Below, piece after piece: positions 1,050 through 47,634 of a stretch of 64,000 nucleotides of DNA. The translations under genes were made by a program, and so were the position numbers. The DNA lies in the NCBI GenBank assembly GCA_934217675.1, contig CAKQCV010000008.1:1-64000 (forward strand), in the 5' to 3' direction. The notes below the pieces were generated by a model. That model did no database searches, was not told the DNA's origin, and worked only from the letters and a program-made list of their open reading frames with translations. The first letter of the stretch is position 1. Each line of letters starts with the position of its first letter. The stretch comes from an uncultured Prevotella sp. Its GTDB lineage: Bacteria; Bacteroidota; Bacteroidia; Bacteroidales; Bacteroidaceae.

Positions 1050-3854
1050 ATGAAATATATACCATTAGCACTGTTGGCACTTGCCGCAATATCGGTGGAT
1101 GCCAAAATAACAATAACCCAAACCACATGCAATTACCAAAAAGGACTTGCCGTGTGCGAAGGTGATATAAAAGTGGGCTGGCAAATGCTATCGGATATAA
1201 ACGGCGATAGACAAAAGGCATACCAAATTGTCATTACAGAAAACACATCAGGAAAATGTATCTATGACTCAGGAAAGAAGAAATCATCAGAGAGCCAATT
1301 TATCGCAATTCCATGGCTGAAATCAAACAAGCATGGTTATTTGTGGAAAGTGCGTGTATGGGACAAAAACGGTAAGCCATCCGAATGGAGCAAACAACAG
1401 CAAATTAGAATAGCACCAAATACCGCCGCATCCTGTTTCCATAATAGTGAAACAAAAGGAGGGCAAAGCACTTGGATTGGTGCCATTACCAAAGCTGACG
1501 CCAAACTCCCTGAAGGGCGTTTCTCTAATGCCGAATTCAAGAAAGACTACTTCAAAGACAAATGGAATCCAGTAGATACGTTGTCTTCGAAAAGCATTAT
1601 TCTGCGCAAGGAATTTTCCAACAAAGGCAAAAAAATAACCGATGCTGTTGTATACATCAGTGGCATGGGACACTACGAAATGCATATCAACGGGAAAAAG
1701 GTTGGCGACAGTGAATTTTCACCTCTTTGGAGTGAATATAGCAAGACGATATATTACAATACGTATGATGTTACCAGCATGCTAACAGCCGGTAACAATG
1801 CTATTAGCGTTATGCTCGGCAATGGTTTCTTCAACGTGCAACGTGGCACAAGATACAGCAAACTGATGACAAGTTTCGGTGCACCACAGATGATTATGCG
1901 CATGGAAATAAACTATAACGATGGAACAAGCCAAACTATCGTCAGTGATTCTACTTGGAAATATGCACTAAGCCCAGTGACGTTCAACAGTATATATGGC
2001 GGTGAATCCTATGATGCACGACTTGTGCAGAACGGATTTGACCGTGCAGGCTTTAATGACTCAACATGGAAAAATGCAGTCGTCGTGGAAGGAGCTGGAG
2101 GACAACTTGAACCACAAACTGCTCAACCTGTTAAAATAATGGAACGCTTCGGCATAAAATCATGGAAATATCTGCCAATTGACTCGGTAGCGATTGCATC
2201 GGAAAAGACAAAGCGCACAGTGTCGGCACACACATTTATAGCAGATATGGGACAGAACCTTGCCGGTTTCCCTGAGATTACAGTAAAGGGGAAACCTGGA
2301 CAAAAGGTTACAATGCTTGTTTCTGAAAATTTGAATAAACAGGGTGTATGCGACCAGCGACAGACAGGACGACAGCATTATTATGAATACACTATCGGCA
2401 GCGATACAACTGAGACATGGCATCCACGCTTCTCTTACTATGGCTTCAGATATATACAAGTTGAGAATGCTGTACTTGAAGGGGAACCGAATCCATACAA
2501 CTTGCCTATAATATCAAAACTGCAGAGTTGCTTTATATACAACTCCACCGAAGAGGGTTCGTCATTTGAATGTTCAAACCCACTGTTCACTCAGACACAT
2601 CGGTTAATTGAGCGTGCCGAAAGAAGCAACATGCAGAGCGTGATGACTGACTGTCCTCACCGCGAAAAGTTAGGGTGGCTGGAACAGGACAACCTTGTAG
2701 GTCCGAGCCTTTTCTATAACTTCGACATGACACAATATTGCCCGAAGATTATCCGTGACATAACTGACACACAGAAACAAAATGGAATGGTACCAACCAC
2801 TGCACCTCAGTATGTGTCGTTCGGCAATTTGTTTGATGATTCACCAGAATGGGGCAGTACACTTGTCATAATGCCATTCCAGTATTATGAACAGTACGGC
2901 GACAGTACGCTTATTACTCGCAATTACACCGCAATGCGCCATTACGTGGACTACTTGACAAGCAGGTCGAAAGGCGGCATCGTCAGCCACGGCTTAGGTG
3001 ACTGGTATGACGTTGTGGAAGGCGAGAAATCTGGTTTCTGCAAGAACACCCCTATTCCTCTCGTTGCTACAGCTCACTACATCTACGACTTGAAACTTTT
3101 GACCTATGCTGCAAAAATGGTTAACAACAAAGCTGACGAGAATAAATATTCTGCATTATACAATAAGGTGGTTGATGCCTTCAATACAGAATTTTATCAT
3201 CCCGACTCTTGTTATTACGGCACTGGCAGTCAGACCTCAAATGCCCTACCATTATTTCTTGGCATAACGGGCAATAACAAGGAAAAGGTGTTGAACGCTT
3301 TGGTAAACGACATACAGAAACACGGCAACCGCCTAACTACAGGCGATGTTGGCAACCGCTATCTATTCATGTCGCTTGCAATGAACCAAAAAGATGAGCT
3401 GCTATACACAATGCTTAACCATTATGAAACTCCAGGTTATGGTTTCCAAATAAAACAGGGAGCGACAACTCTTACCGAACAATGGGATCCAAGACAGGGT
3501 TCTTCGTGGAACCACTTGATGATGGGACAAATTGACGAATGGTTGTTCAAACGCATTGCTGGCATTCAAAATTTACCTGGTACAAACGGCATGCGTCACT
3601 TACTTATATCACCAACTCTTGTTGGAGATTTAAAGAGTGTGAAAGGTTCAACCACCACTCTATATGGTAAAGTAGAAGTTGAGTATACAAAAGAATATCT
3701 GTCTGTAAATATTCCTATAGGCTGTGATGCTGTTATTACATTGGGAAAATTCAGCAAAAAAGTTGGAAGCGGTTCTCATTTATTCCTGTTTAAAGAAATA
3801 AACGGCACAACCAACATATATGAAGCAATAATGCCAAAAGCGAAAAGACAATAA
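1050..3854 (+). CDS. Secreted alpha-L-rhamnosidase, GH78 family
   Basis: A 934-residue enzyme predicted to release terminal alpha-L-rhamnose from pectic side chains or plant glycosides. An N-terminal signal peptide (about 1-18) ends at VDA. Next come a fibronectin-like domain (about 25-125), beta-sandwich domains (about 190-500), the (alpha/alpha)6 catalytic barrel (about 505-830) and a C-terminal beta domain. The GH78 hallmark DCPHREKLGW begins at D534, which places the likely general acid at E539. A second conserved acidic site is E810 in TLTEQWDP, followed by SWNHLMMG and the DEWLFKRIAGI helix typical of the family. Length and domain order are normal. It lies 12 bases after the DUF5703-like gene and ends before a strong terminator. 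The product most likely acts in the periplasm or on the cell surface. Confidence 0.93.
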   Translation: MKYIPLALLALAAISVDAKITITQTTCNYQKGLAVCEGDIKVGWQMLSDINGDRQKAYQIVITENTSGKCIYDSGKKKSSESQFIAIPWLKSNKHGYLWKVRVWDKNGKPSEWSKQQQIRIAPNTAASCFHNSETKGGQSTWIGAITKADAKLPEGRFSNAEFKKDYFKDKWNPVDTLSSKSIILRKEFSNKGKKITDAVVYISGMGHYEMHINGKKVGDSEFSPLWSEYSKTIYYNTYDVTSMLTAGNNAISVMLGNGFFNVQRGTRYSKLMTSFGAPQMIMRMEINYNDGTSQTIVSDSTWKYALSPVTFNSIYGGESYDARLVQNGFDRAGFNDSTWKNAVVVEGAGGQLEPQTAQPVKIMERFGIKSWKYLPIDSVAIASEKTKRTVSAHTFIADMGQNLAGFPEITVKGKPGQKVTMLVSENLNKQGVCDQRQTGRQHYYEYTIGSDTTETWHPRFSYYGFRYIQVENAVLEGEPNPYNLPIISKLQSCFIYNSTEEGSSFECSNPLFTQTHRLIERAERSNMQSVMTDCPHREKLGWLEQDNLVGPSLFYNFDMTQYCPKIIRDITDTQKQNGMVPTTAPQYVSFGNLFDDSPEWGSTLVIMPFQYYEQYGDSTLITRNYTAMRHYVDYLTSRSKGGIVSHGLGDWYDVVEGEKSGFCKNTPIPLVATAHYIYDLKLLTYAAKMVNNKADENKYSALYNKVVDAFNTEFYHPDSCYYGTGSQTSNALPLFLGITGNNKEKVLNALVNDIQKHGNRLTTGDVGNRYLFMSLAMNQKDELLYTMLNHYETPGYGFQIKQGATTLTEQWDPRQGSSWNHLMMGQIDEWLFKRIAGIQNLPGTNGMRHLLISPTLVGDLKSVKGSTTTLYGKVEVEYTKEYLSVNIPIGCDAVITLGKFSKKVGSGSHLFLFKEINGTTNIYEAIMPKAKRQ

Positions 3855-14741: not shown

Positions 14742-14804
14742 GAATTTAAGATAAAATTAAGAATAATATTATCAAATGCAGCAAGACTGCATACAATAAA
14801 AATA

Positions 14805-14831
14805 CCCCAAACCACAAATTGCAGTTTGGGG
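14805..14831 (-). terminator. Terminator after the three-repeat secreted protein gene
   Basis: An 8-bp stem (CCCCAAAC 14805-14812 with GTTTGGGG 14824-14831) is followed on the minus strand by a T-rich stretch. It separates the surface cluster from pepT. Confidence 0.7.
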
Positions 14832-14866
14832 CATTTCAATACTTTTCAATTCAAGATGCAAGGCTA

Positions 14867-16531
14867 TTAGAATCCCCACTTCTTTATGTTTATAGTTCCT
14901 GTCCATGATGCTGTCACGGTATTTTGTGGTTCAGAATCGTCTCTTAACTCATACTCCACAGTGTACGTACCGTCATCATTCTTTGTTATCTGTATAACTC
15001 CATCTGTTGCTGCAGCAATGACATCAGGTTCATTTGAATCACTTGTATAATGCTCGTATGCCCATGTACCCTTTCTTACTGCAGTATATCCAACATAATA
15101 GCCTGGTACAAATGTATATGGCTGATAGTTGTTATTTGCCACATCTGCCACTTTATATGTTCCTTCTGGCGTCATGACATCCTCAGGAACGATAAGATCA
15201 AGCAGATAAGACTCATTTGTTATATGGTCGTTCATAACAATCTCAAACTCGTTTACGCCTTTATATGCATTATCATTCTTGTCAACATATCCAGGTGTAA
15301 GATATGCATAGCTGTATGTATCGTTAGAGAATTTCAAGTCTTTATCCTCTTTCAGCTTTTCATCATTATTCCCCGGACGACGGTCAATAATGTCAACACT
15401 CCCCATAGGATATTCGCCTGTAACATGTATACCGTTTCTTGTTGTCAAGTCAAGTTTAACGTTATATCTTTCTCCGTCTCGCTTAATAGTGATTGTTCCC
15501 TGATTAGCATATCCGTAAAGCATTGTCCCCGTTTCAGCACTATTTCTCATATCCTGTATATATGTTCCGATATAGAGAGGATATCCTATCACAGTATAGC
15601 AGTCGCCAGACAAGAATGTGAAAGGTTCAAACTCTTTTATGTCTTCATAGTTTGGAGATGCTTTATATGTTCCGTCTGCAATAACAATATTGTCATCAGC
15701 AGGAGTTGTTGAGAACAAATCCACGTTAACCACTATTCCCCCTGTAATAATTCCGCCTTTTTCATCACCATCAAACAGCTGCAATGTATAACGATGATAG
15801 TCGGCATCACCTCCATGGGCAGTTATCGTAAGTCCTTTAAACACGGTATTGTCAACATTATCCTTCATCAATGTATCAGCCGAACTTGAACTTTTGTTCT
15901 CGAATGTCAGTTCACCCTCATAATGTATAGAGAAAGTTTCTCCTTGATCAGACACAAAGTTTCCATCTATTTTATAGCCTTTTTCGGTATGAGCCACAGT
16001 TACAGTTCCGCTTTTTATTGTTTTATACTCAATTTCATTATCGTCATTGAGCATTCTAACAAATGTAGATTGAATGTCACATGTCCCGGCAGACGTTGAT
16101 TCATCAAGTTTGTATGTTCCTTCCGGAATTATTGCATTGTCAGGATTCTCGCTATCGTTACCATATAAATCCAAAGAGAGAACAATTCCGCCAGGAGTTG
16201 TAGGCATATACTGCTGCTCATCACTAACTTCAAGTTCATCATTTGTCAGAATCATATAATAGTTTGCCGCTCCTTCGCTCGACTGCGATTTCAGTCCCTC
16301 AAAATAGTTTCCTTTCACTTGTTCTGTGAGTTTGAATTTTTGAGTTCTCTGTATAGAAGCGATGTCAGCTATATTCACTCCTCCCACAGTCCATGCATCA
16401 AGAGCTTTAGTAAAAGTGAGGTTTCCATCAACATTGGTCTTCATTTTATCCTTCTTGTTTATAAGGAATTGTGCATTTGCCGTAGTAGCAAGCAGCAAGA
16501 AGGTAATTATGGTGTATAAAATCTTCTTCAT
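14867..16531 (-). CDS. Secreted protein of unknown function with three related repeat units
   Basis: A 554-residue protein with a clear signal peptide (about 1-20, ending ANAQ). I do not recognise the family. The body is made of three diverged units of about 140-170 residues. Each has hydrophobic strands leading to PEGTYK or ADGTYK (near residues 137, 285 and 457), and in units two and three then a Tyr/Phe-rich YxPFTF-type strand. All three end in alternating beta-strand segments such as GTVTVAHTEKGYKIDG, GTITIKRDGERYNVKL and GVIQITKNDDGTYTVEY. The pattern suggests tandem beta-sandwich domains. No sorting tail is present at the C-terminus (it ends INIKKWGF), unlike its upstream neighbours. 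The gene follows the small sorting-tail protein after 32 bases and is probably its operon partner. Function unknown; ligand binding at the surface or in the periplasm is a guess. Confidence 0.8.
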   Translation of the reverse strand: MKKILYTIITFLLLATTANAQFLINKKDKMKTNVDGNLTFTKALDAWTVGGVNIADIASIQRTQKFKLTEQVKGNYFEGLKSQSSEGAANYYMILTNDELEVSDEQQYMPTTPGGIVLSLDLYGNDSENPDNAIIPEGTYKLDESTSAGTCDIQSTFVRMLNDDNEIEYKTIKSGTVTVAHTEKGYKIDGNFVSDQGETFSIHYEGELTFENKSSSSADTLMKDNVDNTVFKGLTITAHGGDADYHRYTLQLFDGDEKGGIITGGIVVNVDLFSTTPADDNIVIADGTYKASPNYEDIKEFEPFTFLSGDCYTVIGYPLYIGTYIQDMRNSAETGTMLYGYANQGTITIKRDGERYNVKLDLTTRNGIHVTGEYPMGSVDIIDRRPGNNDEKLKEDKDLKFSNDTYSYAYLTPGYVDKNDNAYKGVNEFEIVMNDHITNESYLLDLIVPEDVMTPEGTYKVADVANNNYQPYTFVPGYYVGYTAVRKGTWAYEHYTSDSNEPDVIAAATDGVIQITKNDDGTYTVEYELRDDSEPQNTVTASWTGTINIKKWGF

Positions 16532-16563
16532 ATTGACATGTGTTTAAATGTTTTAGAAAAATG

Positions 16564-17031
16564 TTATTGCTTAACGAATTTAACTTTCGACTGTTTAGTC
16601 TTCAACACATACGTACCTTTAGCCATATCACTAACGTCTATGTTCAAAGCATCACCTGTCGAAACAGCATTTTTTATGAGTTTGCCATCTACAGAATAAA
16701 CGCCAACCTCTGTACCACAGGCAAGCCCCGAAATCTGCAAACATCTTGATGCTTTTGTAGGCAACACAACTTTCTCCTTTCCTACCCCATTATAAACACT
16801 TTCAATACCAGTTGTTTGCTGGTCGAAAGTAACTCTTTTGATGTTGGCAACAGGCTCCCCTTCCTTTACAACAACAGTAAAGTGATCATCATCATCGGCA
16901 GCCAAGAAATAGTCAACACTCTCTACAGGTATCCTCACTTGGGTATCAGTTTTCAAAAACCACGCTTTATCGTCAGCCTTGGCATAGCCAACAGCCAACA
17001 GCGCAAACACAGAAAGCAATAATTTCTTCAT
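16564..17031 (-). CDS. Small exported protein ending in a type IX secretion-like sorting tail
   Basis: The start is placed at the ATG at 17031 (155 residues); the frame can be extended three codons to a TTG, but the ATG gives a standard MKK signal peptide (cleavage near YAKA). The mature part has two pieces. The first, about 20-75, is a strand-rich segment with an acidic run (AADDDDHF) and a VANIKRVTF motif seen in many Prevotella exported proteins. The second, about 80-155, matches the pattern of T9SS type A sorting domains: VYSVDGKLIKN, then GTYVLK and a basic VKFVKQ end. Almost nothing besides the tail and one small module is exported, so it may be a minor surface component or scaffold piece. 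It has its own -7 box upstream and is followed by the three-repeat gene. Confidence 0.75.
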   Translation of the reverse strand: MKKLLLSVFALLAVGYAKADDKAWFLKTDTQVRIPVESVDYFLAADDDDHFTVVVKEGEPVANIKRVTFDQQTTGIESVYNGVGKEKVVLPTKASRCLQISGLACGTEVGVYSVDGKLIKNAVSTGDALNIDVSDMAKGTYVLKTKQSKVKFVKQ

Positions 17032-17068
17032 GATAGACAATATTGATTAATATTAAACTTTTCAACAG

Positions 17069-17076
17069 CAAAGATA
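17069..17076 (-). promoter_or_regulatory. Probable -7 box for the small sorting-tail protein gene
   Basis: TATCTTTG on the minus strand, 38 bases before the ATG at 17031. The -33 element is unclear. The box lies downstream of a terminator, which supports a separate transcription unit for the last two genes of the cluster. Confidence 0.5.
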
Positions 17077-17180
17077 CAAAAATTATCAACACAAGAAAGC
17101 ATTTCATCTAAAAAACTGTTATTTTGAGCACAACAATACAAAAAAAGCCCAAAACAAATCACACTTATTGAACACAAAAA

Positions 17181-17232
17181 GAAGGACCGAAGCACAAGGT
17201 ATTTTCTCAAACCCCAAGATGCTCAGTCCTTC
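17181..17232 (-). terminator. Terminator after the two-cohesin protein gene
   Basis: An imperfect 13-bp stem (17181-17194 with 17220-17232, one mismatch and one bulge) is followed on the minus strand by a TTTTT run. Confidence 0.7.
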
Positions 17233-17286
17233 ATACCAACATGTTCTATGTATCAATAAAATCTTACTTTATAAAAACTTTCTAAT

Positions 17287-18996
17287 TTACTTTACAAATA
17301 CCTTCATAGTCTTACCGTTAGCATAACGGAATATATAAGACATACCCTTAACAGGATTTTCAACCTTTGCTCCATTGAGAGTGTAGATACCTGTGCATTC
17401 AGCCCCATCCACATTCATCAACGCACTATTAATACCAGTTGTTTCACTTGCTTTCTTCGCATCAGCCAAAAGCTTCTCAATAGTATCCTTCAATAGTTTC
17501 AGATCAAGTTGAGACTCTTCTGTAAGTTCAATATTCTCATACTTTGTCTGAAGATCCTTGGCAATCTTGTCCAATTCAAGCTGGATTGAGAGTTCTGTTC
17601 CAGAGAACTGTCCTTCAACATTTGCATAATCTTTACTTATGGTTTCCTTTACCTCGTCAAAGCGAGCCTGTACAGCAGCAAGTTCTTCCGACAAACGTTT
17701 ATAAGCAGCCTCATTGGCAGCAACTTTCTCCTCGTATGCCTTCTTTTCATCCTCAAACTTCTTCTGAGCGTCTTGTGCTGATGTGATATAATTTGCTATC
17801 GCATTATTAACAGCCTCAACAGTCTCTGCATCAAGAACAGACTCCTCGTTCAAGTCATACGAAGCGTTCTTTTTTTCAACATCAGTCTTCAGAGCATCAA
17901 TCTGAGTTTGGATAGCAGCAACAGCTTCTTCATAATTTCCAGCAACATCCTTGCACTCCTCTGCCACCTTAGCCTTTGCATCATCAAGAGCTTTCTGCAA
18001 TGCAGCGATTTCAGTTGTCAAACGAGTGTAAGCTGCATCGTTAGCAGTCTTCATACTTGAAACTTTAGCCACGGCCTTCTCATTGTCAAGAGAATACACG
18101 TAGCCATTTTCGTCTGAAGCAAGAGTATTAGTAAAATATATTACAGTATTCTCATCAGAAACGAAATTTTGGTCTGCCACAACATTGAAAGAGAAGATCA
18201 CGCCATCATTACCGCTTATTTTGTCAATTGGCAACGAAGACAACACAACTCTTACATATCCGTCGTTTTGCTTTGACGAAATAGAGAAATTACTTGAAAG
18301 GCGGTCACCATAAGTAAATTTAAATCTGTCCTTTTCGTTTTTCTCTATCTGCAAGCCTTCAGGAAGGATAATATCCGTCTGCATTCCATAAAGACCAATT
18401 TCATTGTTCAAAGCCACATCAATTCTGTGTGTGCCACCAGGTTTGATAGAGAAAGCATTCTCTCCCAATGTCAGATTACCGATAAGAGGTGTAACAGCTT
18501 GATACGAAGGGGCATCAATAGCCAACTTATTGGCTTCAACATCTGTACCGCTGTTTGTAGAAAAATAAATTCGTGCATTGTCGTCTTTTGTGAAGTCCTC
18601 ATCTGCCTTTATTGTGAAATATCCCAATGCACCCTCTTTGCCACTGATAACATTAAGTCCAGTAGGTTTGGTCAGCACAGCATAACGCCATTTACCATTA
18701 TCCATGTGATACAAAGTTGTGCTGTGGAGTTCCCTGTCTACACGCTCGTCATTAACCTTCAAACTACCCTCAACTATTTTAACCTTATCGGTAGTAAACT
18801 CCATGTCAAACTGCAATCCCGAAATTTCATCATCATTAACAAGGTTCACAGCAATGACCTTCGACTCACCCGGCTTGATAGAAATAGGTCCACCATCACC
18901 AAGCATCAGTTTGTTTCCTGCCAGAGCAGTAAGCACACCACTCATTGCCATAACAGCAACAAGAGCTATTCTATTTATATGGTTGAATTTAAACAT
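17287..18996 (-). CDS. Surface protein with two cohesin-like domains, duplicated helical stalk and sorting tail
   Basis: The start is set at the ATG at 18996 (569 residues, good GAAAG ribosome-binding site); a TTG three codons upstream is less likely. A signal peptide ends near LTALAG. Residues about 32-162 and 177-312 look like two cohesin-type beta-sandwiches: each opens with ISIKPGES or FSIKPGG, then a LQFDMEF or MQTDIILPEG strand and an ISGKEG or ISGNDG turn. Residues about 320-425 and 430-525 are two copies of a helical repeat, beginning NDAAYTRL and NEAAYKRL. The end (TGIYTLNGAKV then KTMKVFVK) resembles a T9SS sorting domain. The second cohesin-like domain resembles the one in the giant protein encoded just upstream. 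Likely an outer-surface partner of that protein; the exact role is unknown. Confidence 0.85.
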   Translation of the reverse strand: MFKFNHINRIALVAVMAMSGVLTALAGNKLMLGDGGPISIKPGESKVIAVNLVNDDEISGLQFDMEFTTDKVKIVEGSLKVNDERVDRELHSTTLYHMDNGKWRYAVLTKPTGLNVISGKEGALGYFTIKADEDFTKDDNARIYFSTNSGTDVEANKLAIDAPSYQAVTPLIGNLTLGENAFSIKPGGTHRIDVALNNEIGLYGMQTDIILPEGLQIEKNEKDRFKFTYGDRLSSNFSISSKQNDGYVRVVLSSLPIDKISGNDGVIFSFNVVADQNFVSDENTVIYFTNTLASDENGYVYSLDNEKAVAKVSSMKTANDAAYTRLTTEIAALQKALDDAKAKVAEECKDVAGNYEEAVAAIQTQIDALKTDVEKKNASYDLNEESVLDAETVEAVNNAIANYITSAQDAQKKFEDEKKAYEEKVAANEAAYKRLSEELAAVQARFDEVKETISKDYANVEGQFSGTELSIQLELDKIAKDLQTKYENIELTEESQLDLKLLKDTIEKLLADAKKASETTGINSALMNVDGAECTGIYTLNGAKVENPVKGMSYIFRYANGKTMKVFVK

Positions 18997-19044
18997 AACT
19001 TTCAAAATTAAATGTTATCACTTTTCATCAATTTATAAATAAAT

Positions 19045-19083
19045 GGCGTGGCTGGTTATCACCGTAGCCATAACAGCCACGCC
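19045..19083 (-). terminator. Strong hairpin between giant gene and two-cohesin gene
   Basis: A stem of about 14 bp with one bulged base (19045-19059 with 19070-19083, core GGCGTGGCTG). There is no strong T-run on the minus strand, only an AT-rich tract, so it may be a leaky terminator, attenuator or RNA-stability element setting the ratio of the two products. I see no convincing promoter between it and the next gene. Confidence 0.55.
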
Positions 19084-19126
19084 TTTAATTAAGAGAGAAA
19101 AATATTACTGATGTTTATGTGTGTTC

Positions 19127-22100
19127 TTATTTACCAGTAACCTTTTTGGCTTTGCCGTTGACATTACGTATAATGTTAATGCCCTGCTTAACCTTGTCAA
19201 GCAACTGACCACCTACAGAATAAACCTTCTGCTTCAAGTTGCCCTCTGTCTCAACACCATTTATGCCTGTGGTGTTACCGCCAATAGTTGTTGTGCGTCC
19301 GTTAGCCTCAGCAAAGATGATGTTCTGAAGAGCCACATTGTCAACATTACCACCCTGAACATCAAGATACATAATTGCATCACCGCCATTAAAGCTGTTG
19401 ATGTCAATAGTACTGATAACCACACGGTGAACATTTCCAAGGTCGTTAGAGTATAGTTCGTGTCCGTTAGCACGGTCACCAACACCCTCTCCAACTATTG
19501 TCATACCAGCAGGCAACACTATATCCATCTGGCATCCCACATAGTTCTTATAGTTGTTCAAGTTAATTGCAATGCGCTGAACGCCACCATTATCTTGAGC
19601 CGAGATACTCATAGTTTCAGCAGAAGCCATCGGAGCATTGTTCATTATCGGACCATTGTTTGGCCATCTGCCCGTAGTAACCTTGTTTGCCATAAGAGTA
19701 ACATCACCGATTGTAATGCTCTGGTCGCGATCAACATCAGCGATTTCAAATTCCATGCCAGTCAACGCATTCGGGTCAAGAACAGCCTTGACAACAGCAT
19801 TATAGTCATCGCTAAGAATCTCACCATCGTGATTTACATCACCCTTCATATAAGAATTTGCCGTCAGTGATTCTGTCAGCGTATTGACTTTCTCAACAAG
19901 TTCGTCTGCAGTTTTCTTCACGAGTTCGAATCCTTCAGCATCCTTTACATAGTTGATATACTTCAATACCGTATTTCCACTCTCATCATATCCCCATGCC
20001 TGACCATTGATATCGAAAGATGTCGCAGAAGGAGTATTTCTCCAATCATTAAACTGGTCAGCATAATCATTCAAATAATCAACACGGTCTTTAAGTGCGT
20101 AGTACTCAGATTTAAGAGTGCCATCAGGATCGTAGATACCTTTTGAAGATTTGCTCAAACCAACTCCATACTGCAAGAAGGCTCTAAACATAGCATCTTT
20201 TGCTTTATTAACTTTGCCTCTATAATACAAGTTTGTTTCATTGTATATAGCGTATCTCTCAAGTTTACCTACCCATTCCTTTATTACGCTCTCAAGATAA
20301 GACAGTTCACTATTAGGCTGAAGCAAAGCTGAAGCAGGACCTGTCTCCAATGCCTTGTTTGCATTTTCCAGAATTTGAGTATTATAAGCTACAGCATTCT
20401 TTGCACTTTCAATACAAGCAGCATAATAAACCTTCCAGGTGTCATAAACATTATCATAGTCAATGTCAAAGTTTGAAACTTCATCCAGATGGTTCAACTC
20501 GCCTACAACACTTTCCACTCTCTTCACTTCTGCATCAGCAGCAGCATTCTGAGCAACGAGAACCTCATATCTTGCTTCATGGATATCATACGGTTCATCA
20601 GCAGTATTAAGGGCAGTGCGTGCAGCCTTGATATCATTTACAGCCTTGTTGACAACAGCTATAATCTTGTCATCGTAAGTCTGGATGTCATCACCACAAG
20701 ATTCATACAAAGCCTTAGCCTCGGCAAATCTATTCTTGCAAATCTCATACTTCCTTGCGAATTCACCCTGAACAGGCTTATGAGCATTGTCAAAGTCATC
20801 CTGTGCAGCTTTGAAATCATCTTCAGCATCATCAACAATCTGCTTAACGTTTGCTGTAAGTTCACCTATAAGGTCTCTCTTCCAAAGTTTCGTCAAATCA
20901 GAATGAGCCTTGGCAACCTTCTTTTCAAGAGCCAGCAAGCCAGCATCTTTCTTTGCCTCTTCCTTCGTTCCATTATTTATGAAGCCATCCAACAAGTTAT
21001 CAAGTTCTGCAAGCAATCCCTTGCAGTTGCTATCGTAGAATGTTTCAATTTCTTGAATCTTCTCTGTATCCTTGCCATAGAACTTATCAATAGCCTCTTG
21101 CTTTTCCGTATTGATAGCTACGATTTCAGCTCTAATATTGTTAATTTCCTGATTATTAGAATCATAGTATATACTTCCAATAGCACCAGAGATTACATTA
21201 TAGTCATACCAGCTCTTTCCGCTCTCTATCGTGTTGCCAGCGATTCGATCTGTGAGTTCCCGTGAAGCATTTTGCTCCGTTAGAGCTGTCTGCCAATTTT
21301 CAACCTGCGTAAATGCAGCAGCAATATTTCCTTCTATTGTATTGCTTATCACATTAAATTCTTGATAATACTTGGCAGCTGCAGCAATCTTGTCAGCCAA
21401 AGTCTTATAATCAGCCGTCAATGTAGCAAATGCCTTGGCATTAGCCTGGAATGCATCATTCTGTGCCTTTGCACTATGATATACAGGAACAGCTTGGTTG
21501 TAGAACTGTTCAACAAAGTTTCTTACCTCAGCAAGTTTAGCATACATATTGTCAGCCTCAACAGCAGCTTCAGCCATTGCTATTGCCTTGTCGAGAGTAG
21601 TCTTCACGATGCTGTTATAAGTAGCGATGTCGGCAGCTGCATTCTCATATCCGAAGCCAGCCATACTGTTGAGCATATTCTCATTGTCAGCCTTGGCTCC
21701 AGCATAACGCAAGTCACCCTCCGTGATAGTTCCGGCAGCACCAACATACTTACCGTTATACATTGCGTTCCACTCATTCTGAGCAGCCTTTTCAAGGTCA
21801 GCTCCAATCCAACTGTCAACCTTTTCGAAATCAGCCCAATCGTTATCGAGATTGTTTATCAAGAATGAATTATTTCTGTAACTTGTAGCATTACACTTGT
21901 CGTAGAAGTCAAACACATCCTTGAATGCATCCTTACGAACATTCTTGTCGAATGAACTTATGTCAGTCTCTGCCGCAGATATTTGTGTAAGTACAGTTTG
22001 GAGTTTGCTGTCAAGCACAACTCTTGCCTGATTGTTAACCTTGTCGTCAAGATCCTGTTTTGCATCTTCAAGTTCAGTTCTATATGTTTCTGCCTTTTTA

Positions 22101-25100
22101 GCATACGATCCTTCAACATCCCATAGTGCAGGCGATACAGTTTTAGCGCGACTATCCTTTGCCTCTTTCTTCAAGTCTTCAATCAAGATAGTATACTTGT
22201 ATATATTCTCCTGAGCCGTGATAATGTCATCAATATTAACAAGAGCCTTCAGCTCCTCTGTCGTAATATTCTGATATTTCTTTATAAGTTCCTTTGCTTC
22301 GGTATTAGCGGCATCAGTCTCAGCAACAACAGTCAAGAAAGCCTCGTAACGTGCAGTATTGTCAGCAGATATTACTTCATTGTATTCCTCACCACCATTG
22401 ATAAAGTCTTCTTTCTCCTTCAACTGATTGCGCAATGACTCGAATTTCTGCATCAAATCGTTGTCGTTCTTTGCAGACAAGCCCTTCATGAAGTAATCTT
22501 CAACATCTTTTTGAGCATCCTTTATATCCTTCTGAATCGTAGCCAATTTGTCAAGATACGGTTTCAATGTAGCAGGAGCAATATCCGAAGCGTTGAACTT
22601 GTTGTTGACCTCATTCCAGTAAGCCATCAACTTCTCACCTTCTGTAACTTGAGAATTTTTGCCGTCAGCTTCAAGAGTTCTGCCATCGTAAGCTTTCTTG
22701 TCGGCAGCTGCAAGCTCTGGCAACTCTGCAACATTTGCAGTGAGAGTTTTCAGTTTGTTTGTTATCTCGTCAGTCTTCTCGGCAACATCTCCATTTGCAT
22801 AAGCATTCTCTATATCTTGCAACAAAGCATCAGCCTCTTTTACATACTTGCCATTAGGATTTGCTATGAGCGAGAGATAGTAAGCCTCGTTTGCACCTTC
22901 AGTATTTTCAGATACAAGAGTGCGGCACTTGTCAAAGATTGCAGAATAACCAGTAAAGTTTGTTCCGTCAAATTTAACCTTCTGTCCGTCATAAACATCC
23001 TTGAGATCAAGGTAAGCATCATAGTTAGCAGTAGAATCCTTAGCAAGCTGCAACAAGTCGTCAGCTTTCTTCTTCAAATCCTTTATGCGGCTATCAATAC
23101 CTTTAACTGTTGCGCCTTCATCATCAGTGCTGTCCTGGCGAGCTTTCTGCAAGTTTTCAGCGTTACGCTCTTTTTGTGCATCAACCTTGACAGTCTTAAC
23201 TTCTGCCTCGATAGCATCAATCTGCGGTTGTATAGTTTCAGAACCAGTATAAGCCACCTTGAATGCCTTCTTTGCCTTTGTCAAAGTTGTTGTAACAGCC
23301 TTTGCATTCTTGTCTACTTCTTTCTTGGCCTCATTCTCGCTCTTTACTAATGTTATTTGCTCGCTTGCTTCTGTTTCAAGATTAGCAAGTTTAGTGTTGA
23401 TTTCGTCAACAGCAGTCTTTATTTCAGCCAATAGCGACATCGCCTCAACCGCATTGTCTGGAGTAATGGCATCAACATCCGAAGCAACATTTGTTATATT
23501 AGCATCCTGTGCCTGTATTTCAGTCTTCAAACCGGCAAGTTTTGCCATAAGGTCATCATACTTCAAGCCAAGCTGTCCGTCAGCATTTCCAGCCTCCCAA
23601 TAGTTCTCGTTACCAGCAGTTTCGTGGTTTGTAATACGAGTTTCAACCGACTTTATCAAGTCGTTGGCAGCATTGTATAAGATTTTAGCCGCTTCGACCT
23701 TGGTTATATCCTCTGAAGTTTTCTTGTCGTTACCGAACGCTGTCTTCAAAGCATCAGCATCTGTAGAGATTGTAGGATCAAGTGATATTGCGTTCAAAGC
23801 TGCAAGATGAGCAGCATCAAGCTTATTGTTAGCAGCCTTAAATGCGCTTTCGATTCCAGCCTGTTTTACCTTTAGAGTATCTATACGGTCACCGTATGTA
23901 GTTCCAGAAACTGTTGTAGACGCAGTTTTCACAACAACGGCAGTGTTTGCACCAACAGCATCAGTCAATGCAGTCATCTTTGCAGCATAATCCTTAACTG
24001 CAGCACTAACCACATCGAAGCGTGCCACTGCATCCTCGGCATCCTTCTGATATTTGGCGATAGCAGTCTTGGCAGCATCAACCCTTGCATCCAAAGCAAC
24101 ACGCGTTGTTGCCGAAAGCTGTCTTGCATCGTATTTAGCCTTTACATCTTTAGCCAAAAGATCAATAGTGGTCTGCAAGCCACTGGCTGTTACACCGAAC
24201 TTAGCAGCTACGTCATACACATCCTCTTCTACTGCAGGTTTCAGAGCACCAACGGCTGTCTTCGCATCGTTGAATTCTTTCTGCAAGCCTGTGTCACTGC
24301 CAAGAGCAGCGAGGAATTCATTATTTATATTAAAGTTTTCTATAACAGGAGCTGCATCAGCAGCGAGCTGGTCTATCTTATTCTGTATTGAAGTAATAGT
24401 AGCCGAGTAGTCGGCTGTCTCTATAGGATGCCCAACAGCTGTATAATCAGCCTTTACCTTGTTTTCCAAAGCAGCAATATTGCCGTTGATACCATCAATA
24501 ACCGTCTTGAAATCATTCTTCACATCGGCATTTTCCGTTGCTGTCGTTAAGTTTGCATTCAATGTAGCTATAGCGGTATCAGCATTTTTCTTGTTAGCCT
24601 CTACGGTATTGTACTTGTTGATATAAGTAGTCTTCACATCAACAATTGCAGTTTTTTGGGTTTGGATAATATCAACAAGTTCTGTTTCCTTTTCAGCAGT
24701 AACCAAAGCCTTGTCATCTTTCACAGTTTTCCATGCATCCGACAATATCTTCCATGCAGCCTGCATGTCAGTAAGCACCTTTTCGTTCCAGTCTTTATAG
24801 TTACCGTCGACAGGCATTTTCTCCAGCACCTCAGCCGTAGCCTCGTTGAATGCTATCTGTGCTTTATCATATTCATCCTTGACGCGCGTCCAAGAAGCAT
24901 CGTTGCCATTTGCCTTGACAACATTTGTCTTCAACGTCTGAATATCGGCATTTACCTTATCAGTAAATTCATTAATTTTCAGTTTTGCAGCTTCACGGTC
25001 ACCGTAAGCCTTCTCAAGCTCAGTTCCGAAGTTTTTGATATATTCGCCAATTGCCAGATAAGCTTCGCCATATACACCCTTTGCATATTCAGAAGCAGTT

Positions 25101-25840
25101 GCCCACTCTCCACCGGCAGCGGCAAGAGCCTCATAGACAGCTAAAGCATTAGCCTGAGCAGTCTTTGCATCATTGTAAGCCTTGTAGTTATCAACAGCAG
25201 CATCAAGTTCTGCCCCAAAAGCAGTAACCTTAGCGGCAAGAGTTTTTATATCTTCACTATCAGCACCTTTCCAAAGCTTGTAGTCGCCATAAAGTTTATA
25301 GTCGCCATTCTTTATTGCCTTTAGCTCTGTTGCCAATTCTGTAGACTGATACTTCAAATCACCACTGGTATTGTTCCAGCGCTTATCGCCTTGTAAATTG
25401 TCATCACCCTTTTTTGTTATTTCAGAAAGCTGGGTCAAGATAGGGTCAACGACAGCAGCAAAGTCGTAAACGAGTTCAAACTTTACGCCAGAGAAAGAGA
25501 ACTTTGTGTCAGCAGTAACAGCCGTAACCTTTACAGTCACGTCTGCAGCATTTTCTCCGGTGATTTTAAACTCTGTATTTAGTGCATATTCACGACCGCC
25601 GTAAACAGCAACAATCTTTGCATTGTCTACGACAGTACCTTGCAATTTGTAATTACCTGGGAGTAGAGATTTCTTTATAGAAACTTCCTTACCTGTAGAA
25701 ACAGTTACAGTGCCGTCTGCAGCAACTGTAAGATCATCTCCTGTCCAAACGTTTTTGTCTATTACAACATCAGCATTCGCCAAAGCTGCAACAGGTGCAC
25801 CTGTTAAAGCCAAGAGAGAAATCAGTACATTTTTTCTCAT
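19127..25840 (-). CDS. Giant helical-rod surface protein with dockerin, cohesin-like domain and sorting tail
   Basis: A 2237-residue protein. A signal peptide (about 1-23) is followed by an N-terminal beta domain (about 24-125). About 1860 residues of Ala/Lys/Asp/Glu-rich predicted helix follow, almost free of Cys, in irregular helical repeats (Y-containing helices separated by G/N/P turns): probably a long rod. At 1998-2057 there is a type I-like dockerin with two complete calcium loops, D2001-V-N-H-D to D2012 and D2035-V-D-R-D to D2046. Residues about 2077-2190 form a cohesin-like sandwich (CQMDIVLPAG motif). The end (KVYSVGGQLLD, then basic KAKKVTGK) resembles a T9SS tail. The gene is preceded by a 406-bp regulatory region with a 21-bp-phased repeat array and by a LytTR regulator gene. 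I infer a secreted, surface-attached rod able to self-associate or dock to the neighbouring cohesin protein; no adhesion target can be read. Confidence 0.87.
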   Translation of the reverse strand: MRKNVLISLLALTGAPVAALANADVVIDKNVWTGDDLTVAADGTVTVSTGKEVSIKKSLLPGNYKLQGTVVDNAKIVAVYGGREYALNTEFKITGENAADVTVKVTAVTADTKFSFSGVKFELVYDFAAVVDPILTQLSEITKKGDDNLQGDKRWNNTSGDLKYQSTELATELKAIKNGDYKLYGDYKLWKGADSEDIKTLAAKVTAFGAELDAAVDNYKAYNDAKTAQANALAVYEALAAAGGEWATASEYAKGVYGEAYLAIGEYIKNFGTELEKAYGDREAAKLKINEFTDKVNADIQTLKTNVVKANGNDASWTRVKDEYDKAQIAFNEATAEVLEKMPVDGNYKDWNEKVLTDMQAAWKILSDAWKTVKDDKALVTAEKETELVDIIQTQKTAIVDVKTTYINKYNTVEANKKNADTAIATLNANLTTATENADVKNDFKTVIDGINGNIAALENKVKADYTAVGHPIETADYSATITSIQNKIDQLAADAAPVIENFNINNEFLAALGSDTGLQKEFNDAKTAVGALKPAVEEDVYDVAAKFGVTASGLQTTIDLLAKDVKAKYDARQLSATTRVALDARVDAAKTAIAKYQKDAEDAVARFDVVSAAVKDYAAKMTALTDAVGANTAVVVKTASTTVSGTTYGDRIDTLKVKQAGIESAFKAANNKLDAAHLAALNAISLDPTISTDADALKTAFGNDKKTSEDITKVEAAKILYNAANDLIKSVETRITNHETAGNENYWEAGNADGQLGLKYDDLMAKLAGLKTEIQAQDANITNVASDVDAITPDNAVEAMSLLAEIKTAVDEINTKLANLETEASEQITLVKSENEAKKEVDKNAKAVTTTLTKAKKAFKVAYTGSETIQPQIDAIEAEVKTVKVDAQKERNAENLQKARQDSTDDEGATVKGIDSRIKDLKKKADDLLQLAKDSTANYDAYLDLKDVYDGQKVKFDGTNFTGYSAIFDKCRTLVSENTEGANEAYYLSLIANPNGKYVKEADALLQDIENAYANGDVAEKTDEITNKLKTLTANVAELPELAAADKKAYDGRTLEADGKNSQVTEGEKLMAYWNEVNNKFNASDIAPATLKPYLDKLATIQKDIKDAQKDVEDYFMKGLSAKNDNDLMQKFESLRNQLKEKEDFINGGEEYNEVISADNTARYEAFLTVVAETDAANTEAKELIKKYQNITTEELKALVNIDDIITAQENIYKYTILIEDLKKEAKDSRAKTVSPALWDVEGSYAKKAETYRTELEDAKQDLDDKVNNQARVVLDSKLQTVLTQISAAETDISSFDKNVRKDAFKDVFDFYDKCNATSYRNNSFLINNLDNDWADFEKVDSWIGADLEKAAQNEWNAMYNGKYVGAAGTITEGDLRYAGAKADNENMLNSMAGFGYENAAADIATYNSIVKTTLDKAIAMAEAAVEADNMYAKLAEVRNFVEQFYNQAVPVYHSAKAQNDAFQANAKAFATLTADYKTLADKIAAAAKYYQEFNVISNTIEGNIAAAFTQVENWQTALTEQNASRELTDRIAGNTIESGKSWYDYNVISGAIGSIYYDSNNQEINNIRAEIVAINTEKQEAIDKFYGKDTEKIQEIETFYDSNCKGLLAELDNLLDGFINNGTKEEAKKDAGLLALEKKVAKAHSDLTKLWKRDLIGELTANVKQIVDDAEDDFKAAQDDFDNAHKPVQGEFARKYEICKNRFAEAKALYESCGDDIQTYDDKIIAVVNKAVNDIKAARTALNTADEPYDIHEARYEVLVAQNAAADAEVKRVESVVGELNHLDEVSNFDIDYDNVYDTWKVYYAACIESAKNAVAYNTQILENANKALETGPASALLQPNSELSYLESVIKEWVGKLERYAIYNETNLYYRGKVNKAKDAMFRAFLQYGVGLSKSSKGIYDPDGTLKSEYYALKDRVDYLNDYADQFNDWRNTPSATSFDINGQAWGYDESGNTVLKYINYVKDAEGFELVKKTADELVEKVNTLTESLTANSYMKGDVNHDGEILSDDYNAVVKAVLDPNALTGMEFEIADVDRDQSITIGDVTLMANKVTTGRWPNNGPIMNNAPMASAETMSISAQDNGGVQRIAINLNNYKNYVGCQMDIVLPAGMTIVGEGVGDRANGHELYSNDLGNVHRVVISTIDINSFNGGDAIMYLDVQGGNVDNVALQNIIFAEANGRTTTIGGNTTGINGVETEGNLKQKVYSVGGQLLDKVKQGINIIRNVNGKAKKVTGK

Positions 25841-26060
25841 AATTGTAAAGTTTTTGGGTTAATTGATCTAAAATTTATGTTATTAGCATTATCTCGTTTT
25901 CATGTTGTTCCATACATATTACAATACTGTAGACAGTAAAAATAGTATCAGATAAACAACTAAGTATAGCCATTTCGTTTTGTGTATTCTAACAGCTTTT
26001 CTTTGCGAGTTGGTTGCGCCAAAAGAACATATCGGTAGATATCAATTCAATTGACATTTG

Positions 26061-26068
26061 CAAATATA
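26061..26068 (-). promoter_or_regulatory. -7 box of the giant surface-protein gene
   Basis: TATATTTG on the minus strand, predicting a leader of about 210 bases. The nearest TTTG (26095-26098) is 26 bases away, too far for a normal -33 element. This weak -33 fits a promoter needing an activator bound at the array just upstream. Confidence 0.6.
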
Positions 26069-26107
26069 AAGAAAAAACAGCTTCTGATAACTCACAAAAG
26101 TTTGGTT

Positions 26108-26180
26108 TTCGTGAATTCGCGAAGTTTATTCGTGAATTTAATACGCATCAACGCGAACATATTTTAATTGTAAGCTAACA
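26108..26180 (-). promoter_or_regulatory. Array of four half-sites with exact 21-bp period (candidate LytTR operator)
   Basis: Plus-strand 10-mers start at 26108 (TTCGTGAATT), 26129 (TTCGTGAATT), 26150 (AACGCGAACA) and 26171 (TAAGCTAACA): always 21 bases apart, two helical turns. A TTCGCGAA at 26116-26123 makes the first site half of an imperfect palindrome. LytTR proteins bind pairs of 9-bp direct repeats separated by 12-13 bp, and the first two copies match the published W-M-M-G-T-T-N-W-K pattern at seven of nine positions. The array ends 39 bases before the -7 box of the giant gene. The rest of the 406-bp gap shows only AT-rich DNA and weak hairpins. Confidence 0.65.
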
Positions 26181-26246
26181 CTTTAGCAATCAATGTGTTA
26201 CACTATTTTACAAGTGTACAGTTTACATCATTCGTTCTTCACATCA

Positions 26247-26660
26247 TTATAAAATATCTCCATCGGAGTCTTGCTCCGGCTCATATTCCACTACACTCTC
26301 ATCATTAGCCTTAATCATTTCCATCAGCATGCGGAGAACGGTTTTTGAAAGACTGAGCGTCATAACCTTTCCATGGTTATCAGCAAGAGAAACTGTCTGC
26401 TTTACCGCATTTACATGATATATGCTATTGATATTGATAATGTATCTTCTGCCAAGCCTCAAAAGATTTTTATTATCACAATGTTTAGCTTTGATTTTTT
26501 CTTCTATTCGTGCCAAGCTGAAAGGCACCATAAAACTGTTTCCACGTGAAGTGAACACATGGGTGTAATGGTCGTCTGCCTCAAAACACATTATATCACT
26601 GAGGTCAACAACATAAAGCTCGCCATGCAAGCTAAGACATAGTTTAGAGTTTGATTTCAT
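26247..26660 (-). CDS. LytTR-domain-only transcriptional regulator
   Basis: A 137-residue protein that is almost entirely a LytTR DNA-binding domain (about 5-110): LYVVDLSDIMCFEADDHYTHVF, then LRLGRRYIININSIYHVN, then a C-terminal strand-helix. No receiver domain, membrane segment or kinase partner is present, so how it is signalled is unknown. An acidic tail (about 120-137, EYEPEQDSDGD) could contact another protein. It has its own strong promoter and is encoded directly upstream of the giant surface-protein gene on the same strand. The 21-bp-phased array between them has the geometry of a LytTR site, so it probably controls that gene, possibly in response to cell density or the envelope. 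Confidence 0.9.
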   Translation of the reverse strand: MKSNSKLCLSLHGELYVVDLSDIMCFEADDHYTHVFTSRGNSFMVPFSLARIEEKIKAKHCDNKNLLRLGRRYIININSIYHVNAVKQTVSLADNHGKVMTLSLSKTVLRMLMEMIKANDESVVEYEPEQDSDGDIL

Positions 26661-30933: not shown

Positions 30934-31803
30934 TCATTTTTTATACATTGGAGCTTTTCTCTTTTTTTCAACAACACGGTCGTCAAAGTCTCGTGTCAAT
31001 TTGCCAAATTTCTCAATACTTCCATCTGGCACTAAGATGACATTAAGATTGTCACAACCACTAAGCATACTGCGTTTATATTTGGCAGGAACGCCACTGA
31101 ATTCAACTTTCTTCAGCGAAGCACAATCGGCAAAAGCGCATGCACCTATTTGATCTATTCCGCTTGGCAGCGTTATGCCGATGAGAGAATCACAATCAAA
31201 GAAAGCTTCATCGTCTATAACTTTCAGTGATGACGGCAAGGCAACCGCCTTTATATACTTGTTTTTTGAGAATGCTTTCTCTCCTATTGTTTCAACGCCC
31301 TTTGGTATTTTGTATTCTTGGTCAGAAGATATGTAAGATACAAGTGTTTTCCCACCATCGGCAAACACAGCTTTTCCGTCTGATACTACATAATCTGAAG
31401 AACTTTCAACTTTCAAATCTACTATCTCAATAAATGGATTTGTTCCGAGTTTCACCACTGTAGACGGAATCTTTATTTCCCTAAGAGATATACATCTGCC
31501 AAAAGCTTCATGACCTATAGTTTCAATACCTTCGGGCAAGGTTATCTCCTCAAGATAAGCACACCCCCAAAAAGCATCCGAATCTATGTCTCTTGTTCCT
31601 TCACATACTGTATAGCTACCCTTTAAACTCTTAGATGCCATCAGCACATGACGCCCATTTTTTGAATAGAATACTCCGTCAAGGTCTTCCCTGCTACCTG
31701 ACGTTTTTCTTATAGCAAAGTCAATGACAAGTTGCTCAAGCTTATCCTCGGCATTCAAATCTTTCTTTAAATCCTTTAACTGAGATTTCTTCAAGTCCTT
31801 CAT
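30934..31803 (-). CDS. BspA-like leucine-rich repeat protein, predicted cytoplasmic
   Basis: A 289-residue protein with no signal peptide: it starts MKDLKKSQLKDLKKDL, a charged helix. Residues about 70-250 carry LRR_5/BspA-type repeats with the pattern IxxxAFxxCxxLxxIxLPxxIxxIG (for example DAFWGCAYLEEITLP, EAFGRCISLREIKIP, KAFSKNKYIKAVALP, EAFFDCDSLIGITLP, CAFADCASLKKVEFS). The tail is basic (VVEKKRKAPMYKK). BspA proteins are usually secreted; this one lacks export and sorting signals, so it is probably an intracellular binding protein. It is the first gene of the operon, 16 bases before ppk1, which invites a link to polyphosphate but does not prove one. Confidence 0.85.
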   Translation of the reverse strand: MKDLKKSQLKDLKKDLNAEDKLEQLVIDFAIRKTSGSREDLDGVFYSKNGRHVLMASKSLKGSYTVCEGTRDIDSDAFWGCAYLEEITLPEGIETIGHEAFGRCISLREIKIPSTVVKLGTNPFIEIVDLKVESSSDYVVSDGKAVFADGGKTLVSYISSDQEYKIPKGVETIGEKAFSKNKYIKAVALPSSLKVIDDEAFFDCDSLIGITLPSGIDQIGACAFADCASLKKVEFSGVPAKYKRSMLSGCDNLNVILVPDGSIEKFGKLTRDFDDRVVEKKRKAPMYKK

Positions 31804-44030: not shown

Positions 44031-44047
44031 TTTTATATTCTTTTGTT

Positions 44048-47302: not shown

Positions 47303-47357
47303 AAATTCTTATTTTGATTATTAGTTAGTAGCAAATTATTTTAGATGTACCTCTGCA

Positions 47358-47413
47358 ATGGATTAAAATCCATATCTTCATATTGTAGTTTGTTGGGGCA
47401 CACCACTTGTGCC
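47358..47413 (-). promoter_or_regulatory. Two small hairpins in the susC leader
   Basis: 6-bp stems at 47358-47363/47368-47373 (ATGGAT with ATCCAT, 4-base loop) and 47397-47402/47408-47413 (GGCACA with TGTGCC, 5-base loop) lie within the predicted 5' untranslated region. They may affect translation or stability. Otherwise the 332-bp gap 47303-47634 holds only the susC promoter and the terminator of the pectinesterase gene. Confidence 0.4.
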
Positions 47414-47451
47414 GTGTTCTTATGTGAACGGTATAGTTTGATATTCGTTTG

Positions 47452-47482
47452 CAAATATATACAGATTTATTTAAATTGCAAA
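47452..47482 (-). promoter_or_regulatory. susC promoter
   Basis: Minus strand: TTTG (47479-47482), 19 bases, TATATTTG (47452-47459), close to consensus. Confidence 0.8.
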
Positions 47483-47576
47483 ACGTTACTAAAAGTTTTT
47501 CAAAATTAGGACACACTTTTAACGTTATAATCTATTGTCAAAGGTATTATATGCCCACTACCCTACCGATATAAAA

Positions 47577-47610
47577 AATGTGGAAGGAACTGATTTATTC
47601 CCTCCACATT
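47577..47610 (-). terminator. Terminator of the pectinesterase gene
   Basis: A 10-bp stem with one bulged A (47577-47587 with 47601-47610, core AATGTGGA) followed on the minus strand by TTTTTT. Confidence 0.85.
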
Positions 47611-47634
47611 ATAATATAATAGCATTGTATCATA

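Follow-up and report, generated by a model that had tools for sequence, protein, structure and literature searches.

A LytTR-linked Prevotella gene cluster as a candidate enzyme-free cohesin–dockerin surface assembly

A regulator-linked gene pair and its borders

The window analyzed here comprises 64,000 nucleotides of contig CAKQCV010000008.1 from an uncultured Prevotella sp. (GCA_934217675.1) and harbors, at 14867..26660, a cluster encoding a LytTR-only regulator, a giant rod protein, a partner protein and two smaller exported proteins, all on the minus strand (Table 1). The cluster proposed in the original prediction was confirmed, and domain scans found no enzyme in it, as had been claimed. 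The giant N-terminus is signal-peptide-like, as judged by eye, and the real start of the partner may be the ATG at 18996.

Table 1. Coordinates of the features of the cluster within the window.
Feature	Position	Strand	Basis
LytTR-only regulator gene, 137 aa	26247..26660	-	domain match
Third and weaker half-site, TTCGCGTT, another period upstream	26150-26157	-	
Candidate LytTR operator, TTCACGAA-N13-TTCACGAA, 21-bp period	26108..26136	-	repeat search
TATATTTG, putative Bacteroidota-type -7 element	26061..26068	-	sequence match only
Giant rod protein, 2237 aa	19127..25840	-	ORF
Giant N-terminal domain, residues ~24-125	25466..25771	-	consensus; conserved in homologues
Giant helical rod, residues 136-1990	19871..25435	-	sequence; structure model for last ~350 residues
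Giant dockerin, residues 1999-2054	19679..19846	-	profile match and sequence comparison
Giant dockerin calcium loops	19805-19840 and 19703-19738	-	
Giant cohesin-like domain, residues ~2070-2193	19262..19633	-	structure model
Giant tail, short sorting-domain-like end	19130..19261	-	profile comparison, local mode, probability 79.5
Hairpin, giant/partner gap	19038..19090	-	10-bp uninterrupted GC-rich stem; sequence reading and folding
Partner protein, 572 aa	17287..19005	-	ORF
Partner first cohesin-like domain, residues ~31-168	18502..18915	-	low-confidence model
Partner second cohesin domain, residues ~173-319	18049..18489	-	structure model
Partner helical stalk, residues ~320-522	17440..18048	-	
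Partner tail, related to giant tail	17290..17439	-	profile comparison
Hairpin then T-run, 3' of partner	17181..17232	-	sequence reading and folding
TATCTTTG, -7-like element of separate downstream unit	17069..17076	-	sequence match
154-aa exported protein, type IX sorting domain; separate unit	16564..17028	-	profile match
Exported protein of 554 aa lacking a family match, in a separate unit	14867..16531	-	

In LytTR regulatory systems (LRS), as described in the excerpted text of PMC6193735, direct repeats 11–13 bp apart lie just ahead of the promoter and precede the regulator's own operon, the examples from Bacteroides featuring an 11-bp spacing and a TATCTTTG element. The Prevotella locus resembles these systems in having a regulator that consists of a LytTR domain alone, without a receiver, and direct repeats spaced within the same range ahead of the putative promoter of the giant, where TATATTTG lies 39 bp after the candidate operator and would yield a leader of ~215 nt. 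It differs from them in that the repeat precedes a surface-protein gene, that of the giant, and in that no membrane inhibitor gene lies beside the LytTR gene, which is flanked by the giant and, on the opposite strand, a peptidase M15 gene. Of 16 upstream regions linked to a regulator, 10 contain repeats of at least 8/10 at a 21-bp spacing, compared with 0–5 for other spacings between 12 and 42, and the operator repeat tracks the LytTR subclass in the subclass alignment (9/9 vs. 0/7). Within the 583,734 bases of the window and 28 loci, to which its uniqueness ahead of giants is limited, the candidate operator is found with at most one mismatch in 10 places, all ahead of giants. Among the matches listed by a whole-genome search, four are exact, each at a giant, and many two-mismatch and some one-mismatch matches lie away from the giant. 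The LytTR gene and the matching repeat ahead of the giant support the predicted regulation of the cluster and indicate that the giant–partner gene pair is probably switch-controlled.

The further proposal that five genes are regulated as a unit is retained for the LytTR–giant–partner core and dropped for the genes of the 154-aa and 554-aa proteins. These fall outside the core because they are preceded by a hairpin with a T-run, possess their own TATCTTTG -7-like element and lack homologue matches (zero phmmer matches at E up to 1e-3 across 29 scanned loci), and a single five-gene operon is rejected for both of them. They nevertheless stay neighbors of the core in close relatives: the longest contigs with homologues of the 554-aa protein and of the giant are equal in size (112220, 39333, 30241). 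The hairpin and T-run 3' of the partner likely mark the end of the giant–partner unit. Neither this hairpin nor that of the giant/partner gap is among the sites of a consensus terminator scan with a loop limit of 8, which the loops of both exceed, and the scan returned 10 sites against 7.2 expected, a small excess; the operon borders are hence drawn from sequence reading and folding. A stem of 10 or more is present after 15 of 19 giants (those of L001, L027, L060, and L061 have shorter ones), yet also after 71 of 181 control genes, which weakens the case for the conserved giant–partner hairpin as a specific regulatory element. In 17 relatives with a partner, TAnnTTTG is absent from the giant–partner gap (230 bases scanned), the sole match, in L024, lying inside a gene, and this fits co-transcription of the pair. 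In the window itself, this gap contains one TAnnTTTG, 14 bases ahead of the partner ATG.

Dockerin, cohesin-like domains and tails

Fold comparison of structure models and the presence of two calcium loops bear out the cohesin folds and the calcium-type dockerin of the original prediction, and the Pfam profiles do so in part. The dockerin of the giant scores marginally above the PF00404 cut-off (23.0 vs. 22.9 bits, E 9e-5), with homologous giants ranging from below it (G205, 22.2; G101, 22.0) to 44.5 bits (G084), whereas PF00963 gives no match to the window's own domains at E up to 1. The calcium-loop motif of dockerins is worded DxNxDGxxxxxD, and both loops of the giant dockerin are of this type. 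Across 20 aligned giants, loop 2 has Asp at positions 1 and 12 and Asn or Asp at position 3 in 20/20, and loop 1 has Asp at position 12 in 20/20 and at position 1 in 19/20, its positions 3 and 5 showing greater variation. By sequence, the nearest dockerin is that of xylanase Y (2ccl/1ohz).

The modeled cohesin-like domains adopt a cohesin fold, with the highest Z for 2vo8 and 2jh2 and 2xdh close behind (ties within 1 Z); for the first partner domain this is tentative, as its model has a pLDDT of ~60 and its cohesin match is a dyad match only. In a six-frame scan of 16 genomes, the orthologous partners of 5 score above the Pfam Cohesin cut-off of 24.1 bits (24.3–28.6 bits). In protein scans L024 alone lies above it (28.7), followed by L023 (23.5), L064 (22.1), L029 (19.3), and L025 (18.1), and the L065 partner has no Cohesin match at E up to 0.01.

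Curated sorting-domain profiles do not match the giant or the partner, and do match the 154-aa protein as a type IX sorting domain. Compared with a set of sorting domains that contains one wrongly picked row (L108), giant tails reach a probability of 79.5 in local mode (control regions 0.2 and 3.1) and 14.9 in global mode; the partner tail reaches 97.4 to giant tails and 46.1 to sorting domains. SprA, which stands for the type IX translocon, was found in 15 of the 16 genomes of giant-bearing relatives. In 5 of the 17 loci with a readable end, a count that leaves out L001 (truncated where its contig ends) and L030 (which stops inside the stalk), the partner terminates in a dockerin and not in a sorting-like tail. 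The number of stalk repeats differs among partner homologues, and the L066 partner carries CBM_4_9.

Conservation in relatives and resemblance to known systems

A first scan of genome contigs with the partner alignment returned zero loci and a scan with the giant C-terminus returned one. Gene order was examined in 29 loci (L001, L022–L038, L057–L067), and nine of them with shorter proteins and a related C-terminus (L031–L038 and L067) were excluded from its counts. The predicted order is conserved: the partner lies beside the giant in 18/20 loci (17 detected with phmmer at 1e-3 and L030 by sequence reading), and a LytTR gene lies within 5 kb upstream on the strand of the giant in 15 of 18 testable loci, the genomes of these 15 carrying 1–6 LytTR genes each. 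L001 and L059 have a contig end upstream; the giant of L022 is split into two frames and includes a stretch of N, and L063, with an interrupted giant, was counted for gene order and left out of the alignments.

Cohesin–dockerin pairs are known chiefly from Firmicutes enzyme complexes, and surveys of non-cellulosomal cohesins exist. The cluster shares with the cellulosomes of Clostridium, Acetivibrio, and Ruminococcus both folds and the presence of multiple cohesins on one carrier, but differs from them in its lack of enzymes, its huge helical rod, its Bacteroidota host and its probable type IX export. The top fold matches of its domains are non-cellulosomal cohesins, from Clostridium perfringens glycosidases (2vo8, 2jh2) and Archaeoglobus (2xdh); the perfringens module rides on a glycosidase, whereas the Prevotella domains are carried by a rod and by a stalk that share a single regulator. 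In R. albus, single-cohesin surface anchoring has been suggested, and its few genomic cohesins could likewise tether dockerin proteins at the surface (PMC6118326, excerpted text), but at the Prevotella locus the carrier has a dockerin of its own and is followed by a gene for a dedicated partner. The excerpted text of PMC12997984 (2026) reports 78 human-gut Bacteroidetes MAGs with both cohesin and dockerin, a co-presence that it calls surprising, in need of investigation and left for future work, and states that cellulosome systems are undescribed outside Firmicutes; gene cluster, architecture, and regulation are not described in that excerpt. No report of the giant–partner gene pair was found in searches of open-licence papers. 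The cluster offers a concrete, conserved and probably regulated test case for enzyme-free use of cohesin and dockerin in surface architecture, in which the adjacent gene pair supplies the first combinations for measurement and the operator repeat makes control of the unit directly testable.

A proposed surface assembly and its alternatives

We give roughly even credence to a model in which the cluster encodes a LytTR-switched, enzyme-free cohesin–dockerin surface assembly. LytTR would bind the direct repeat and activate giant and partner jointly, and both proteins would be exported, probably via the type IX system, with their tails retaining them at the surface, a role that a dockerin tail would take on the partner of some relatives. 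At the base of the giant, the calcium-loaded dockerin would then clip into the partner cohesins and couple rods to one another or to the partner, with the giant's own cohesin as a further socket, and the ~1,850-residue rod would project from the cell and provide a regulated coat or adhesion brush. The original interpretation is supported in part, its self-assembling fiber or mesh being hypothetical. If the tail is an anchor, dockerin and cohesin would be next to each other where the giant meets the cell, an arrangement more in keeping with cross-linking at the base or with docking than with head-to-tail polymerization.

Giant and partner might instead be anchored cohesin carriers whose sockets serve as a docking station for dockerin-tailed proteins encoded elsewhere, with giant–partner contact secondary, a possibility that we regard as rather unlikely. 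Giant-bearing genomes contain 1–15 dockerin matches, that of the giant included (16 genomes), and the dockerin of the giant may hence not be exclusive. Among 20 dockerin-bearing proteins scanned, many end at or just past the dockerin, and the 16 from giant-bearing genomes include Peptidase C10, Endonuclease I, BspA-type LRR (4 proteins), List-Bact or InlB repeats and Big_2 domains, making a protease, a nuclease, leucine-rich adhesins and repeat proteins candidate clients; Peptidase C25 and CotH accompany dockerins solely in the 4 proteins from giant-lacking genomes. The latter genomes, however, carry 0–16 dockerin matches themselves (10 genomes), so such clients would be independent of the giant, G358 (one 3.55-Mb contig in the part covered) has only 3 matches, one of them the giant, and gene adjacency under a single regulator favors contact between giant and partner. 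An absence of any intermolecular assembly, with the dockerin and cohesin of the giant clasping each other or forming a calcium-stiffened neck close to the anchor, and the rod acting as a stand-alone adhesin or spacer, seems less plausible still. It would suit the adjoining of both domains in one chain, matched jointly in 20/20 giant loci, and the cohesin and dockerin matches found in one frame in other proteins (G036:C52, G101:C6, G032:C150), but it leaves unexplained both the separate two-cohesin partner and the partners with a terminal dockerin. That the cluster encodes a cellulosome or another complex for glycan degradation is highly improbable: cohesin and dockerin are present, the L066 partner has its CBM_4_9 and dockerins with GH modules are described for rumen Prevotella bins (PMC7480376, excerpted text), but the cluster lacks enzyme domains, no glycoside hydrolase was detected in any of the 20 dockerin proteins (long ones scanned up to 1.5 kb from the dockerin), and neither cluster nor these proteins combine dockerin-bearing carbohydrate enzymes with a scaffold.

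A distinctly doubtful suggestion is that, in this group, dockerin and type IX sorting tail can replace one another: partners have either a sorting-like tail or a dockerin at their end, and dockerin-tailed proteins that lack a recognizable sorting domain would be displayed, and perhaps also exported, by clipping onto tail-anchored cohesin carriers, the giant among them.

Conservation of the giant, its partner and their gene order

A profile of the C-terminus of the giant (the 2237-aa rod protein), at a cut-off of 1e-20, matched 17/139 genomes of the genus of a relative and 19/399 genomes sampled from that relative's family, with G001, G048, G101 and G105 common to both sets. One homologue is named Prevotella sp. 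and another match lies in a Prevotellaceae MAG, which puts the source organism near Prevotella. Among the 20 giant-type loci, a frame above 2000 aa is present in 19 and interrupted in one. A cohesin partner lies behind the giant in 18 of these loci (17 by phmmer at 1e-3, and L030, with three cohesin-like repeats, by sequence reading) and is absent from L058 and L060, while a same-strand LytTR gene occurs within 5 kb upstream in 15 of the 18 testable loci. Since those 15 genomes hold just 1–6 LytTR genes each, this neighbourhood is not due to chance, though shared descent accounts for part of it. An opposite-strand frame separates LytTR gene and giant in L057; in L028 (upstream stretch L155) they are separated by a gene for a second, probably helical protein (863-aa frame in the stretch read).

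The constant portion of the partners is their N-terminal cohesins. The middle consists of helical repeats (about 2 to 6 copies by eye, in homologues of 572–942 aa), List-Bact or InlB repeats (L026), a carbohydrate-binding module (L066) or long coils (L064), and 5 of the 17 partners with a readable end, the window's included, terminate in a dockerin, not a sorting-like tail (L023, L024, L025 and L029 via Pfam; L061 via reading). In four relatives the partner is followed by a third gene, encoding about 380 aa (see table); its product is cohesin-like by eye in the N-terminal half and has a sorting-like end. Protein scans gave no family match for it in these four, and in G088 it reaches 19.4 bits to PF00963, under cut-off.

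A candidate operator and the LytTR subclasses

LytTR proteins bind direct repeats, mostly 11–13 bp apart, immediately upstream of the promoter, as described in PMC6193735. When ten-base words with at least 3 G or C were scanned in 16 regulator-linked upstream regions of 420 bp each, period 21 gave an identity of at least 8/10 in 10 regions and at least 9/10 in five, against 0–5 and 0–2 regions for other periods from 12 to 42. The core TTCRCGAA-N13-TTCRCGAA, with at most one mismatch, occurs at 10 places in 583,734 bases (the window and 28 loci), all ahead of giants, and a -7-like element follows 39–41 bp from the core end at all 10: TAnnTTTA in L057, L058 and L059, TTACTTTG in L030, and TAnnTTTG in the remaining six. 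L057 and L059 additionally carry TAnnTTTG at other distances. In scans of 20 whole genomes, the exact matches listed all lie at the giant (4/4; G350, G329, G205, G222), one-mismatch copies do occur elsewhere, and two-mismatch matches are no more numerous than those of a reversed control pattern in 12/20.

The giant-linked LytTR proteins form two subclasses, with 32–52% and 17–25% identity to the window's LytTR. The core repeat is present in 9/9 of the former (window counted) versus 0/7 of the latter, some of which have other period-21 repeats (L023, L025, L026). L059, where the gene upstream of the giant lies past the contig end, carries the core; L062 and L064, both without an adjacent LytTR gene, lack it. 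Among the new findings, this association of the repeat with one LytTR subclass weighs most, shared ancestry being the caveat.

Proposed assembly, probable export and other dockerin proteins

Domains, gene order and repeat pattern are the observed part of the proposed mechanism, in which LytTR would activate giant and partner. No TAnnTTTG was found between giant and partner in any of the 17 partner-carrying relatives (230 bases scanned; the L064 gap is longer), and the partner is therefore probably on the giant's transcript, its expression perhaps attenuated by the intervening hairpin. Calcium-bound dockerin and cohesin would then clip giant and partner together. Alternatively, the cohesins of both might receive dockerin-tailed proteins encoded elsewhere, a reading that we consider rather unlikely and that stays alive because giant-bearing genomes encode other dockerin proteins, including a C10 protease, an endonuclease, leucine-rich proteins and repeat proteins. 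Scans of 20 dockerin proteins (16 from giant-bearing genomes; long ones within 1.5 kb of the dockerin) revealed no glycoside hydrolase.

The tails of giant and partner are related (probability 97.4). In local mode the giant tail scores 79.5 (P 1.5e-5) against the type IX sorting domain, compared with 0.2 and 3.1 for control regions, a resemblance not seen in global mode (14.9); curated sorting-domain models match neither tail. SprA was found in 15/16 giant-bearing genomes. Should the tail serve as the anchor, dockerin and cohesin of the giant would sit at the base, with the rod pointing outward and the N-terminal domain at the tip.

The individual parts are known. Dockerins have been reported in rumen Prevotella (PMC7480376), and PMC12997984 notes 78 Bacteroidetes MAGs that have both cohesin and dockerin, leaving the matter open. 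The combination, here in Bacteroidota, of an enzyme-free cohesin-dockerin pair, helical rods, and a LytTR gene with a matching repeat appears new, and no account of the giant-partner cluster was found in the open-licence papers searched.

Four dockerin proteins of relatives (L071, L076, L081, L097), each with BspA-type leucine-rich repeats, share the C-terminal residues DPQ. Shorter proteins with the giant's C-terminal region occur in L067 and L032, where their clusters also contain chitobiase-C-terminal and Fn3-associated domains; phmmer gave no LytTR match in these loci.

Surroundings of the cluster

The terminator-like site agrees with the end of a separate downstream unit (154-aa and 554-aa genes). 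For the 554-aa protein, whose family has no name, 63 homologues were found at E up to 1e-3; by eye it apparently has repeated beta domains. The rhamnosidase and the SusC/SusD pair near a pectinesterase suggest that pectin use is encoded near the cluster.

Coordinates of features in the window and in relatives
Feature	Sequence	Coordinates	Remark
Rhamnosidase	window	1050-3854	
Terminator-like site	window	14799-14837	18 pairs; directly behind 554-aa gene
554-aa protein	window	14867-16531	
Perfect repeat pair	window	26108-26136	21-bp period; ahead of giant
BspA-type leucine-rich repeat protein	window	30934-31803	289 aa; few kb from cluster
SusC/SusD pair	window	42213-48615	close to pectinesterase
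Third gene	L023	12778-13920	
Third gene	L024	12012-13178	
Third gene	L025	6080-7219	
Third gene	L029	13206-14351
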